Assembly (NCBI RefSeq): GCF_029664245.1
Contig: NZ_JANAIE010000002.1
Coordinates: 186,001-250,000 of the forward strand
Reading direction: 5' to 3'
Source: Profundicola chukchiensis
GTDB taxonomy: Bacteria > Bacteroidota > Bacteroidia > Flavobacteriales > Weeksellaceae
Length of the DNA stretch: 64,000 nucleotides
Each line of letters begins with the position of its first letter. Position 1 is the first letter of the stretch. A program made the position numbers and the translations under genes. The notes beneath the pieces were generated by a model. The model saw only the letters and a program-made list of their open reading frames with translations. It had not been told where the DNA came from and did no database searches. This document shows, in pieces, positions 42,809 through 48,248 of this stretch.

Positions 42809-43270
42809 ATGAAATATTTTAGCATATTAGCAGCTATTCTGTTTTTGGTATCGTGTAATACTTCAAAAATCCCTGTGAAGAAAGATTTTAAAATTATTGA
42901 TTTAACCCAACAAAAATGGCAAGGAAAGGGTAGCATAAACGGTGTTTACTATAAAGCTAGTTTAGAGCAAACCACCAAGGGTGAAGTTCAATTTGATTCT
43001 ATTTATGTAGAAAACAATTGGCACAAAGCCTTTGTGGAAGATGAAAACCCATTTGTTGTCATGGCGAATATTACCAGAGAAAGCACAGAACAAGAACAGG
43101 GTCAAATGACACCAGAGGACATTTCTACCAATGATAAATCCAAAATTGAAATCATTCGTCCTTCTGAAAGCACGAATGAATTCAATGGTAAAAATATGTT
43201 GCTTTATCGTTTAAACGGTAAAAAGAGATATTTAGAATTAGGGAAGTTTAGATTTATCAATCCTAACTAA
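42809..43270 (+). CDS. Small lipoprotein, unknown function
   Basis: 153-residue lipoprotein with lipobox LVSC (Cys16). The mature part is a probable small beta-sandwich (QKWQGKGSINGVYYKASLEQ, then charged segments and KRYLELGKFRFI). I do not recognise the family. The start codon follows the cystathionine enzyme stop after one base, so it is translated from the same mRNA. Its last 8 bases overlap the end of the convergent oxidoreductase gene. Confidence 0.75.
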   Translation: MKYFSILAAILFLVSCNTSKIPVKKDFKIIDLTQQKWQGKGSINGVYYKASLEQTTKGEVQFDSIYVENNWHKAFVEDENPFVVMANITRESTEQEQGQMTPEDISTNDKSKIEIIRPSESTNEFNGKNMLLYRLNGKKRYLELGKFRFINPN

Positions 43271-44201
43271 CCACTTCTAAAAACTGAATCACATTTCTAG
43301 CATTCTCGGCATCGAGGATGCTTTTTCTTTTATGCTCAATCGCATCTACAATTTCTTCAATCGCATTTTGGTGAAATCTATTTCCAATAGGTTCGTTAAA
43401 AGGATTTTCTAAATCAGTAGCATTTAGATAATTGATCTCATTCATATACTGTCCACCTATCTGTAAAGTTCCTTTCTCAGCAAGAATCGTGATATTACTT
43501 TCAAAATTCTTTTCAAAAGTTGAAATCGTGTAATTCATGTGACCAAATCCTTCTTTCTCTAACTCAAAAGTTAGCATTCCAGAATCTGGAAACTCAGTGC
43601 AATCTTGATGATTAAAATTGAATTTACGAATATCCAGAGGCTTTAACTCCTCGAACCAATAATGCAAAACATCCACAAAATGAGAGAATTGCGTAAATAA
43701 CACACCGCCGTCCATTGCTTTGGTTCCGTGCCATTCTTTCTGTTGATAATAAGCAGCATTTCTGTTCCAATAGCAATTGACATTAACCATATAGATTTCA
43801 CCTAATTTATTCTCGTTCAAAGCCTCTTTCAGCCACTGAACCACCGGAGAGAATCGAAGTTGCAACATATTAAAAATACGTTTTCCTTGCTGTTCTCCAA
43901 TATAAATTAAACGCTCAAAATCTCGTGAATTCAAAGTAATTGGCTTCTCTACCAAGACATGATAACCCGCCTCTAAACTGGCTTTAGCATGTTCAAAATG
44001 AAGCCCATTCGGTGTTGCAATTACGATGACATCTACCTCTAAACCTGAATCTTTTAAGGAAGCAACATCTGTAAAATGAGGAAGTTCTACTTCTGGTTTT
44101 ACTTGATCAATAACAGCTACCAACTCGGCCTTTTGAGAGTTCTGCATCGCTTGTTGATGCACTTTCCCAATATGCCCGAATCCAAATAATGCAAACTTCA
44201 T
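43263..44201 (-). CDS. Gfo/Idh/MocA family NAD(P)-dependent sugar oxidoreductase
   Basis: 312 residues. The Rossmann start is FGFGHIGKVH, followed by VIVIATPNGLH, the VEKPI catalytic lysine region (about residue 95) and DGGVLFTQFSHFVDVL with the family histidine. The wording NCYWNRNAAYYQQKEWHGT recalls WbpB/WlbA enzymes that oxidise UDP-aminosugar uronates for O-antigen sugars, but no other such genes are nearby, so the substrate is open. It is the last of three genes separated by single bases, after the phosphorylase-like protein. Confidence 0.88.
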   Translation of the reverse strand: MKFALFGFGHIGKVHQQAMQNSQKAELVAVIDQVKPEVELPHFTDVASLKDSGLEVDVIVIATPNGLHFEHAKASLEAGYHVLVEKPITLNSRDFERLIYIGEQQGKRIFNMLQLRFSPVVQWLKEALNENKLGEIYMVNVNCYWNRNAAYYQQKEWHGTKAMDGGVLFTQFSHFVDVLHYWFEELKPLDIRKFNFNHQDCTEFPDSGMLTFELEKEGFGHMNYTISTFEKNFESNITILAEKGTLQIGGQYMNEINYLNATDLENPFNEPIGNRFHQNAIEEIVDAIEHKRKSILDAENARNVIQFLEVVS

Positions 44202-44202
44202 A

Positions 44203-45873
44203 TTAGTTGGTTAGAATCTTATCAATCATTCGTTGAGTAATTAGATAGGTTGGCTTAACTCCTGTAAGTCCTAAACCTCCCGACGCCAATGTACTACCGG
44301 TTTCTAATGGGTTATCCGACGCATAGTAGGCATAACTCACACGAACATCAGAACTGATATGATTTCTAATTTTACTAGCAATTTGAATGGCTTTGTGATA
44401 ATGTGCACCTTCCATTTCTAGTCCAATCGAATTCCAAGAAGTTTGCTTAAAGAATTTCAATACATTTCTATTCTGCAAAGATGTACCTAAAACAGTAATC
44501 ATCATTCCTTCAAAAACACCCAAACCTTGACCTTCAAAATCAGCAAGATTTAATTGGTTTTCAAATGGATAATTATCAGCAGTTCCCTCATGAACAAATG
44601 AATTAGGAACCATGATATCTCCTTTAACTCCCTCTAGAATACCAGCTTTCCCCATGATAGAGATACTCTTGACATTCATCTTAAAAGGTTGATTTATTTT
44701 GTATGGTTTTAATAACTCATCCATTAACTCAAATGCTTGCTCACCAAAAGCATAGTCCATGACAATAATTACATCATCACCCTTGAAATTATGCTTAGCA
44801 AAAGCTGTTTCATTTAAATCTAAATCCTTTAAATCAATGATTTGCGCATCGGTATTTGCTCCTGATCTATCTTTTATATAAATCAAACCATTCTCTATCG
44901 AATAGTTCTTAACACTACGTCTTAATTCCTTGTTCAAGCTAGAAGATAACTCCTCATATACCTGAAACTCTAAATCAGCATCGTATTTTTTGTCCAATCC
45001 TCTATGTGCAAAAAGCATATTCTGAACTGAGTGCATGTTAGCACTTATAATATGAACTGGTCTTTCGTGTAGATTGTTTGCTAATAATTGCTCTTTAATT
45101 TGGTTCGCCCATTTCTCACCAGTAATATGGTGTCCGATTTGTGAACGCAACGCCGAAGTAAAGGTTACCTCTCTATTCACTTGACCCGTGATGTCCATTT
45201 GACTTAATTTCCCCATCCAATAAATAATGTGGAATAATCTGTCTTTGTTTTTATCGAAACTAAAAGCATTATAAGCATTCAAAGTTTCCTGAAAAGATCT
45301 ACCCAAAATATAAGAAAGATGCATTAAAGCCACTTCTCTCTCTTCTAAGGTTAAAGGTTTTTTAGCTTTAACAACGGCTTCAATTTTCTCCCAAACACGT
45401 GTTATTTTTTTAGGATTTCCATCATAAGCACGCTGCATAATTTTATCAGCTTCGTTATAGAAGAAAGTTAGGTGCGTCAAGATATCATACACATCCGAAC
45501 GACCTCTCAAAACCTCAATATTCATTTGGTCTTGGTCAATTCTATAACAATTTCTACGTCTTTTTAACGGAATAATTGGCTCAAAGTGCGAAGCATCATA
45601 TCCTTCATCAGCAGTCAAGTTAATGAATGGTGTCTGCTCTATACCTTCTGGCAATCTATCCAACACATACATTAAACCTTGTAGCTCAACTTTATTGGGA
45701 TCTGCAATCGTTCCATAAATTTCTGGGTTTAATTTTAAAAGTAATTCTCTTAAAGCTAAACCTGAAGTTCCACTAATTTTGAATGAACCACGATAAAACA
45801 AGTGTCTCATCGTAATATATAATCTCTCTATAGACTCTGTAGATTGTCTTGCTAATGCTGAATTTCCTAACAC
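44203..45873 (-). CDS. Uncharacterised 556-residue protein with nucleoside-phosphorylase-like C-terminal motifs
   Basis: Cytosolic protein without signal or membrane helices; probably the family listed as DUF6909 in Bacteroidota (from memory, not certain). The N-terminal 280 residues are mostly helical and unfamiliar. The C-terminal half has three features that look like the purine/uridine phosphorylase and MTA/SAH nucleosidase fold: DDVIIVMDYAFGEQA, then SIMGKAGILEG-VKGDIMVPNSF (compare the family AGG...GD-V-P strand), and SIGLEMEGAHYHKAI (compare the ME-binding helix for ribose). This is inference from motifs. It lies one base from both neighbours. Confidence 0.75.
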   Translation of the reverse strand: MLGNSALARQSTESIERLYITMRHLFYRGSFKISGTSGLALRELLLKLNPEIYGTIADPNKVELQGLMYVLDRLPEGIEQTPFINLTADEGYDASHFEPIIPLKRRRNCYRIDQDQMNIEVLRGRSDVYDILTHLTFFYNEADKIMQRAYDGNPKKITRVWEKIEAVVKAKKPLTLEEREVALMHLSYILGRSFQETLNAYNAFSFDKNKDRLFHIIYWMGKLSQMDITGQVNREVTFTSALRSQIGHHITGEKWANQIKEQLLANNLHERPVHIISANMHSVQNMLFAHRGLDKKYDADLEFQVYEELSSSLNKELRRSVKNYSIENGLIYIKDRSGANTDAQIIDLKDLDLNETAFAKHNFKGDDVIIVMDYAFGEQAFELMDELLKPYKINQPFKMNVKSISIMGKAGILEGVKGDIMVPNSFVHEGTADNYPFENQLNLADFEGQGLGVFEGMMITVLGTSLQNRNVLKFFKQTSWNSIGLEMEGAHYHKAIQIASKIRNHISSDVRVSYAYYASDNPLETGSTLASGGLGLTGVKPTYLITQRMIDKILTN

Positions 45874-45874
45874 G

Positions 45875-46456
45875 TTAAAATAATTTAAAATTTTTGACTT
45901 CGTCCTTTGCGATCATTAGCTGATCATACCATTCTTGTCCAAACTTCTTAATAAGAGGTTCTTTTAAGAATTCGGCTACGGTAACATTAAGTTCCTGACC
46001 TAGTGTACAAGCATCCGAACAAATGTCCCATTTATGATAATTCACCGCCGTAAAAGCTTTGTATTTATCAACTCTTACAGGATATAAATGACATGAAATA
46101 GGTTTCTGAAAATCGGTAGCACCTTCTTCATAAGCCTTTTCGATACCGCATTTGGTTATTCCCTTCTCATCGAAAATAACATATGCGCATTCGGCTCCGT
46201 CCACTAAAGGAGTTACCCAATCGCCGTCATCATCTTTCACATAAGTTCCCTGTTCCTCAATCGCCTTGATTCCCTCGGGACGTAGAAATGGTTTAATATC
46301 AGTAAAAATCTCTTCTAATATCGGTAATTCCTCTTCGTCTAGAGGAGCGCCTGAATCTCCTTCTACACAGCAAATGCCTTTACATTTTTGTATATTGCAG
46401 ACAAATTCTTTCCTAAGAATGTCTGTACTAATTATGGTGTCGTCTATCTGAATCAT
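45875..46456 (-). CDS. DUF3109 family cysteine-rich protein
   Basis: 193-residue cytosolic protein with Cys20, Cys25, Cys29 and Cys30 at the N-terminus (VCNIQKCKGICC) and further cysteines in GAECAY, TKCGIE, ISCHLYPVR and WDICSDAC. The spacing recalls YkgJ/UPF0153 metal-binding proteins, so it may hold zinc or an iron-sulfur cluster. It fits DUF3109. It is the first gene of a three-gene leftward unit with one-base gaps, sharing a divergent spacer with dxs. Confidence 0.88.
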   Translation of the reverse strand: MIQIDDTIISTDILRKEFVCNIQKCKGICCVEGDSGAPLDEEELPILEEIFTDIKPFLRPEGIKAIEEQGTYVKDDDGDWVTPLVDGAECAYVIFDEKGITKCGIEKAYEEGATDFQKPISCHLYPVRVDKYKAFTAVNYHKWDICSDACTLGQELNVTVAEFLKEPLIKKFGQEWYDQLMIAKDEVKNFKLF

Positions 46457-46469
46457 ATCAATAAAGTCA

Positions 46470-46477
46470 CAAAGATA
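46470..46477 (-). promoter_or_regulatory. -7 box of the DUF3109 unit
   Basis: TATCTTTG on the minus strand, an exact TAnnTTTG match, 13 bases before the ATG. Confidence 0.5.
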
Positions 46478-46520: not shown

Positions 46521-48248
46521 ATGTATAAGTATTTAAACATTTTAGAAACCCCATCAGATTTACGTAAACTTAAACGTGAAGACCTTCCTATATTGGCAGA
46601 AGAAGCACGTGATTTTATCCTAGATATCGTTTCTACCAAAACTGGTCATCTCGGGGCTAGCCTTGGCGTCATCGAACTTACCATTGCTTTACATTATTAT
46701 TATAACACGCCGTCCGACTTACTCATTTGGGATGTTGGCCACCAAGCTTATGGCCATAAATTATTTACCGGAAGAAAATCAGATTTTCAAAGTTTAAGAC
46801 AACTAAACGGCATGTCGGGTTTTCCAGATCGAACCGAAAGTGAGTTTGATGCTTTTGGAGTAGGACATTCTTCCACTTCTATTTCTGCTATAACAGGAAT
46901 GGCTCTAGCCAATCGCCTGAAAAATGACAATAGAAAACATTTGGCTGTCATCGGTGATGCATCGATTGTATCGGGTATGGCCTTCGAAGGATTAAATCAT
47001 TTAGGTGATACGGATTTGAATGTAAATATCATCCTTAATGATAATAACATCGGAATTGATCCGGCTGTGGGAGCATTACAGAATCATTTTAATAATACTT
47101 CATCCGCTTCTAAAGTCGATTTCTTTGAGGCATTAGGTTTCAATTATATTGGTCCAATCGACGGACATAATTTTGATAATCTATTCAAGGCTTTTGATGA
47201 ATTAGAGAATTTAAAAGGACCTAACCTACTTCATATCAAAACCATTAAAGGAAAAGGATATGAAAGCGCCGAAAAAGATCAAGTTTTATGGCATTCCCCC
47301 GGTAAATTCGATAAGAAAACTGGAATTATCAGCCCTAAAAAAGAAAAATTAAGCTATCAAAAAGTTGTTGGAGATAGTCTTATTGAATTATTTAAAGGCA
47401 ATAACGAAGTAGCTGCTATAACGCCAGCTATGCCCACAGGAAGTGGTATGGTTGAGTTAATGCAACTTTATCCCAATCGTGTTTGGAATGTTGGTATTGC
47501 CGAACAACACGCTGTTACTTTAGCTGCAGGACTAGCAACACAAGGCATTACACCTTATTGCGTGATTTACTCCACCTTTTTGCAGCGCGCATATGACCAG
47601 GTGATTCATGATGTAGCTTTACAAAATCTCCCGGTAGTTTTCTTAATCGATAGAGCTGGTTTTGTAGGTAGCGATGGAGCAACTCACCACGGTTTATTTG
47701 ATATTTCATTCTTAAATTCTATTCCAAATATGTCGGTAGCTTGTCCTGCTGATGATAAGGAGTTAAAAGAATTAATTGAAATAGGAGCTCATACCTCAAC
47801 ACCTTTAGCTATTCGCTATCCAAAGGGTGAGGTTCAATCATTGAATTTCCCTTTTCAAAACACAGAATTAGGTAAAGCCAAAACCTTAAAAAAAGGAGAA
47901 AAAGTTGCTATTTTATCCACCGGACATATAGCTAGTAACATTCAAAAAGCTATAGAAGGACTGAATTTAAGTTGGTATCACTTCCCATTTGTTAAGCCTT
48001 TAGATTTAGAAGCTTTAAAAAATATCTTCGAGAATTACAGTCATATCTTAACTTTTGAGAATGGAATTAAAAATGGTGGCTTTGGTGCTAGCATTTTAGA
48101 TGTAGCCAATTCTAACAATTATAAAGGTAAAGTTGAAATTCACGCCTATCCAGATGAATTTATTGCGCATGGCACAATTGATGAACTAGAAAATTTGGCT
48201 GGCTTAGATAGCATATCGATCAGAAAAAGATTCGAAGAGCTAATCTAG
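46521..48248 (+). CDS. dxs: 1-deoxy-D-xylulose-5-phosphate synthase
   Basis: Thiamine-diphosphate enzyme that joins pyruvate and glyceraldehyde-3-phosphate, first step of the MEP isoprenoid pathway. WDVGHQAYGHKLFTGR and GDASIVSGMAFEGLNH (ThDP and magnesium binding) lie in the N-terminal domain. GIAEQHAVTLAAGLA, with the cofactor-activating glutamate, lies in the pyrimidine domain, and a transketolase C-terminal domain follows. 575 residues is somewhat shorter than the E. coli enzyme (620). Two small envelope genes follow on the same strand. Confidence 0.97.
   Translation: MYKYLNILETPSDLRKLKREDLPILAEEARDFILDIVSTKTGHLGASLGVIELTIALHYYYNTPSDLLIWDVGHQAYGHKLFTGRKSDFQSLRQLNGMSGFPDRTESEFDAFGVGHSSTSISAITGMALANRLKNDNRKHLAVIGDASIVSGMAFEGLNHLGDTDLNVNIILNDNNIGIDPAVGALQNHFNNTSSASKVDFFEALGFNYIGPIDGHNFDNLFKAFDELENLKGPNLLHIKTIKGKGYESAEKDQVLWHSPGKFDKKTGIISPKKEKLSYQKVVGDSLIELFKGNNEVAAITPAMPTGSGMVELMQLYPNRVWNVGIAEQHAVTLAAGLATQGITPYCVIYSTFLQRAYDQVIHDVALQNLPVVFLIDRAGFVGSDGATHHGLFDISFLNSIPNMSVACPADDKELKELIEIGAHTSTPLAIRYPKGEVQSLNFPFQNTELGKAKTLKKGEKVAILSTGHIASNIQKAIEGLNLSWYHFPFVKPLDLEALKNIFENYSHILTFENGIKNGGFGASILDVANSNNYKGKVEIHAYPDEFIAHGTIDELENLAGLDSISIRKRFEELI

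Follow-up and report, generated by a model that had tools for sequence, protein, structure and literature searches.

Related systems and layout of the locus

AMP nucleosidase (Amn, EC 3.2.2.4; PF10423 and PF01048; PDB entries 2guw, 1t8s and 7uwq) is a two-domain protein with a C-terminal nucleoside-phosphorylase/AMP-nucleosidase (NP-I) fold, in which a Met and a Glu of the fourth motif and an Asp of the fifth bind the ribose and the base (PMC9584410). Bacteroidota carry an AMN-like family, TIGR01721, of ~260 aa and bearing the RefSeq name AMP nucleosidase. A second described system is the WlbA/WbpB UDP-GlcNAcA 3-dehydrogenase, the reaction step of which is set out in PMC10622841. Proteins resembling each of these, together with a cysteine-rich protein, are encoded by a three-gene unit in a 64,000-nucleotide stretch of Profundicola chukchiensis DNA (contig NZ_JANAIE010000002.1, positions 186,001 to 250,000; hereafter the window). 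The source genome is a 2.6-Mb draft of 99.96% completeness, and its named relatives (Flavobacteriaceae bacterium Ap0902, Faecalibacter, Chryseobacterium and Elizabethkingia), judged by best matches, would put it in the Weeksellaceae as GTDB defines that family.

We slightly favour an explanation in which this unit is co-transcribed and was assembled within one Weeksellaceae branch without serving a dedicated pathway, and in which its middle product, DUF6909, would be an AMN-like nucleotide nucleosidase that replaces AMN. The three genes, in order of transcription, are:

45875..46456, minus strand: DUF3109 (PF11307), 193 aa; Pfam PF11307 match of 278.3 bits, exceeding the gathering score
44203..45873, minus strand: DUF6909 (PF21850), 556 aa, GTG start; Pfam PF21850 match of 215.9 bits, exceeding the gathering score of 27 bits
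43263..44201, minus strand: Gfo/Idh/MocA oxidoreductase (Gfo), 312 aa; PF01408, PF22725 and PF02894; WlbA-type

An earlier note, made from the sequence alone, had given these coordinates and families correctly, its phosphorylase-like protein being PF21850 DUF6909. It had also described each stop as being followed, after one base, by an ATG. Both junctions are indeed separated by a single base (TAA-C-GTG between DUF3109 and DUF6909, and TAA-T-ATG between DUF6909 and Gfo), but DUF6909 begins with GTG, the nearest in-frame ATG lying 63 bases further in.

The C-terminal half of DUF6909 resembles AMP nucleosidase

Amongst Flavobacteriales, DUF6909, a domain family of unknown function, shows very high conservation: an alignment of 35 sequences has 67% mean column identity. 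A literature search returned no paper on DUF6909 or DUF3109, and sequence searches of the PDB gave no meaningful relative of either. In the structure model of the window protein (pLDDT 88.7, pTM 0.86), residues ~270-556 are assigned by Foldseek to the NP-I fold. A total of 341 PDB chains were matched at E ≤ 0.001, the best 50 of which are all AMP nucleosidase, MTAN, uridine or purine phosphorylase, or futalosine hydrolase, with AMP nucleosidase 2guw at the top (E 3e-8, prob 1.00). TM-scores are ~0.3 over the whole query, because the C-terminal half alone matches, and 0.6-0.67 for single-domain nucleosidases when normalised to the target. The modelled fold thereby lends support to the suggestion of the earlier note that the middle gene may encode a nucleoside-cleaving enzyme.

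Conservation of individual residues points in the same direction. Met487, Glu488, Asp520, Asn279 and Lys409 are invariant in the 35 sequences, three of them falling within the following motifs:

44314..44418 (approximate), minus strand: catalytic-type motifs E486-M487-E488-G489 and S519-D520-N521-P522 of DUF6909, invariant in 35 sequences

In profile alignments made with hhalign, M487, E488 and D520 align with Met404, Glu405 and Asp428 of Amn; in addition, Asn279 occupies a position compatible with Asn205 of that enzyme, and H248-H249 are plausible counterparts of its His188/Tyr189. The same method reveals a common motif order in DUF6909 (GKAG, GD, EGTADNY, EMEG, SDNP) and the AMN-like family (GKCGG, GD, EGTSNDY, DMET, SDQP), whilst the latter is without the 268-residue N-terminal domain of DUF6909. 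No match of DUF6909 to the TIGR01721 model (cut-off 307 bits) was found up to E 0.1.

Mutual exclusion of DUF6909 and AMN-like proteins

The two families never occur together in either of the samples compared. Amongst 248 Bacteroidota genomes, DUF6909 is found in 37 and strong TIGR01721 matches in 101, with none shared (Fisher p 5e-10, ignoring phylogeny); for 295 genomes of the class the figures are 20 and 199, again with none shared. Outside the order to which the window belongs (284 genomes), nine genomes have DUF6909, 199 have TIGR01721 and none has both (Fisher p 1.4e-5, ignoring phylogeny), and at the genus level all seven DUF6909 genera are without the AMN-like protein (probability ~2e-4, ignoring phylogeny). 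Families f5, f8, f44 and f88 each include both genera with DUF6909 and genera with the AMN-like protein, and such swaps indicate that the exclusion is more than a split between orders. The window's own genome has no TIGR01721 match. DUF3109, which 237 of the 248 Bacteroidota genomes carry, shows no exclusion of this sort. Taken together, the mutual exclusion suggests that DUF6909 and the AMN-like proteins have the same role.

With regard to mobile elements, no phage or viral copies of DUF6909 were found, and plasmid copies occur only on two Persicobacter megaplasmids. One of these is plasmid pPP3 of Persicobacter psychrovividus (380 kb, L177), where the gene is annotated as a hypothetical protein; the other is a plasmid of Persicobacter sp. 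JZB09.

The N-terminal domain and the probable role of DUF6909

The remainder of the protein is as strongly conserved as the catalytic domain, and contains invariant Arg/Lys clusters:

45070..45873, minus strand: N-terminal domain of DUF6909, residues 1-268; model pLDDT 90.5; invariant MRHxFxRG, PxKRRRxxYRxD and GRS motifs

A homologue from Spirochaetales (L109:3290-5356, 688 aa) carries a fused cyclic-nucleotide-binding domain ahead of DUF6909. It scores 414.7 bits to DUF6909 and matches cNMP_binding at E 4.9e-12, with a weak PNP_UDP_1 match (E 0.0015) in the catalytic part, so that the last two link the DUF6909 family independently both with phosphorylases and with nucleotide control.

A number of observations weigh against a role equivalent to that of AMN. 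Residues Arg381, Trp383 and Lys436, which grip the 5′-phosphate in Amn, have no clear counterpart in DUF6909; the substrate may therefore not be AMP, and the phosphate pocket, if there is any, must differ. Direct proof of homology from sequence was sought and proved weak: identity to Amn is ~12%, hhalign gives P 0.008-0.04, and in a HMMER search of 665 proteins an AMN-like protein is the first outside the DUF6909 family, but at E 0.28. The N-terminal domain has neither a sequence nor a fold relationship to that of Amn. DUF6909 has no Pfam match to AMNp_N (PF10423), structure matches are at chance level, and the assignment of the domain to AMNp_N was accordingly rejected. When residues 1-268 were modelled alone, no fold match was obtained in PDB (best E 0.53) or BFVD (best E 0.94), libraries which exclude predicted structures of cellular proteins, and the modelled domain is at most a candidate new fold. 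Finally, the exclusion was tested against TIGR01721 only, with no control nucleosidase family and no full-length AMN (TIGR01717), and ~76 of the 295 class genomes seem to be without either DUF6909 or TIGR01721.

Several of these features would also be expected if DUF6909 used the NP-I fold for another job, be it as a phosphorylase, as a nucleosidase acting on another (modified or signalling) nucleotide, or as a non-catalytic sensor. Phosphorylases and nucleosidases acting on many different substrates share this fold, and the uncertain retention of the AMN phosphate-binding residues, the Arg/Lys clusters and the cyclic-nucleotide-binding fusion would all suit such a protein. We consider this rather unlikely, as the strict exclusion with AMN-like proteins, which holds inside four families as well, points to the same role, and the invariance of the catalytic Met, Glu and Asp makes a dead sensor improbable.

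As to activity, substrate and regulation, we infer that DUF6909 acts as a regulated nucleotide N-ribohydrolase in place of AMP nucleosidase. It would cleave the N-glycosidic bond of a purine 5′-nucleotide, the likeliest reaction being AMP to adenine and ribose 5-phosphate, by an AMN-like mechanism in which Asp520 would protonate the base whilst Met487 and Glu488 would hold the ribose. The N-terminal domain could then be the regulatory or oligomerising part, as AMNp_N is in enterobacterial AMN, and in the spirochaete relative a cyclic-nucleotide-binding domain would have been added in front. We tentatively advance the further possibility that DUF6909 represents a second kind of regulated AMP/purine-nucleotide nucleosidase, with a new N-terminal fold and a spirochaete fusion to a cyclic-nucleotide sensor, which has replaced AMN in Flavobacteriales.

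Conservation of the three-gene unit

The three proteins were searched for in the same 120 Weeksellaceae genomes, with a close Gfo homologue defined as a match at E ≤ 1e-40 and adjacency counted by hand from coordinates. DUF6909 is present in 117 of these genomes, DUF3109 in 119 and a close Gfo homologue in 60. The DUF3109 and DUF6909 genes are adjacent in 27 genomes from five genera (g1, g132, g142, g149 and g150), and all three stand in a row in 17, from three genera (g1, g142 and g149). Genus g139 has DUF6909 followed by Gfo, without DUF3109. Due to the retention of near-contiguity in five genera, co-transcription there is not a matter of chance, which upholds the earlier view that the products are probably made together. 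Spacing varies amongst the relatives, with gaps of 1, 11, 4, 8, 6, 4, -4 and 23 bases between DUF3109 and DUF6909, and of ~38 (29 counted from a TTG), 9 and 4 bases between DUF6909 and Gfo. One-base gaps as a meaningful feature were thus rejected, given lengths ranging from -4 to ~38 bases.

Beyond these relatives the arrangement dissolves. The phylum sample includes 36 further genomes with DUF6909, of which 33 belong to other families, and DUF3109 lies beside it in none of them, the nearest copy being ~9-12 kb away. The trio was therefore rejected as a conserved functional module on synteny, and the unit is a genuine but clade-limited operon. The earlier note had proposed that the three proteins could work on one sugar or nucleotide-sugar intermediate, as an undescribed pathway, and had named the absence of adjacency in most related genomes as what would count against it; such an absence is seen at the scale of both the family and the phylum. 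The idea can draw on the near-contiguity in 17 genomes and on the DUF3109-DUF6909 pair of five genera. Ranged against it are the separation of the trio in most genomes of the family, that of the pair throughout the rest of the phylum sample, the near-universal presence of DUF3109 (237 of 248 genomes, versus 37 of 248 for DUF6909) whether or not the others are there, and the lack of a Gfo homologue in half of the family genomes. The scatter of the three genes outside a few close relatives means that they probably do not form one pathway, a proposal that we hold to be very improbable.

Gene neighbourhoods of the individual members

DUF3109 adjoins the class I ribonucleotide reductase genes nrdAB and MarC in Flavobacteriaceae (L149, L152, L153 and L155), and rpoN in Bacteroidales (a label inferred from kinship rank); these settings also speak against a single pathway. 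The window protein matches PF11307 over its full length, and eight of its Cys residues are invariant across the phylum (C20, C25, C29, C30, C90, C103, C122 and C146), which would suit a site for a metal or an Fe-S cluster and makes it a metal-protein candidate. To our knowledge, no member of the family has been characterised and no function is known. It would be a metal or Fe-S protein, rich in cysteine and with a general use. Beside nrdAB in Flavobacteriaceae, the cysteines might play a metal or redox role.

DUF6909 likewise has different partners elsewhere. In Flavobacteriaceae and other relatives it is commonly preceded by a gene for a GH3 protein and followed by one for a Wzz-like protein with two membrane helices and by rmlA/B/C/D, and in several g139 genomes one Wzz-like gene lies between DUF6909 and Gfo. 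Such arrangements could be taken to mean that DUF6909 has a part in making cell-surface polysaccharides and is functionally linked to the sugar-nucleotide genes. In Chryseobacterium-type genomes, however, it adjoins glutamine synthetase III and an M1 peptidase, and in Elizabethkingia other genes again; moreover, the NP-I fold is not known to have a role in sugar-nucleotide synthesis. A function in polysaccharide synthesis is thus highly doubtful. The differing neighbourhoods indicate instead that each of the three genes has its own history, and the favoured explanation would have a short co-transcribed unit put together in one Weeksellaceae branch from genes that are independent elsewhere, with DUF6909 placed beside DUF3109 and Gfo by accident of position.

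The Wzz-like proteins form a family of 337-359 aa with an apparent membrane segment near either end (judged by eye), and are regularly found with DUF6909 on one side and rml or Gfo genes on the other:

L127:10018-11097, L128:9166-10218, L129:9475-10512, L102:9647-10726 and L120:6810-7823: proteins of Wzz-like layout

Those members that were scanned have no Pfam match. In the genome of the window there is no Wzz-like protein beside the unit, and just one distant match elsewhere.

For Gfo, the earlier note goes too far in stating that none of the three has a known function, as the closest solved proteins to Gfo are the WlbA-type dehydrogenases 3q2i/3q2k (best PDB match 154 bits). Lys86 (EKP) and His174 (SHFVD) align with 3q2k; the Lys of EKP and this His are catalytic residues in WlbA. 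Capsule loci of other Weeksellaceae contain WlbA with a 6-dehydrogenase, an aminotransferase and an acetyltransferase. The window protein falls in a clade apart from these capsule-locus homologues, a placement to be read with care owing to long branches. No close orthologue of the acetyltransferase partner WbpD/WlbB was found in the genus, and no partner genes are adjacent to the unit. Gfo would be best described as a putative WlbA-type sugar (probably UDP-sugar) 3-dehydrogenase, perhaps left beside DUF6909 from an older polysaccharide neighbourhood. In Faecalibacter (L083:10634-11032) and g149 (L113:10616-11011), a 4HBT thioesterase gene follows Gfo, overlapping or touching it, and may belong to the operon of these genomes as its fourth gene.

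Flanking features

Two further elements lie upstream of the unit:

46470..46477, minus strand: possible -7 promoter element of the operon, TATCTTTG (Bacteroidota-type), 13 bases upstream of the DUF3109 ATG; weak
46521..48248, plus strand: dxs, divergent neighbour, outside the unit

The frequency of the -7 motif in the window is at chance level (92 seen versus 86 +/- 9 expected). The dxs product is just 575 aa, and its divergent arrangement with the unit is retained in several genera. At the other end, a small lipoprotein gene without family (42809-43270) is convergent with Gfo, the two ends overlapping by 8 bases; G288 has an open reading frame of equal length in the same position.

Implications

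The idea of a pathway built on the three-gene unit should be abandoned. What deserves further attention is DUF6909, which is probably a nucleotide nucleosidase of a different build. If this is true, the family gains a concrete, testable role in the control of purine nucleotides and energy charge.

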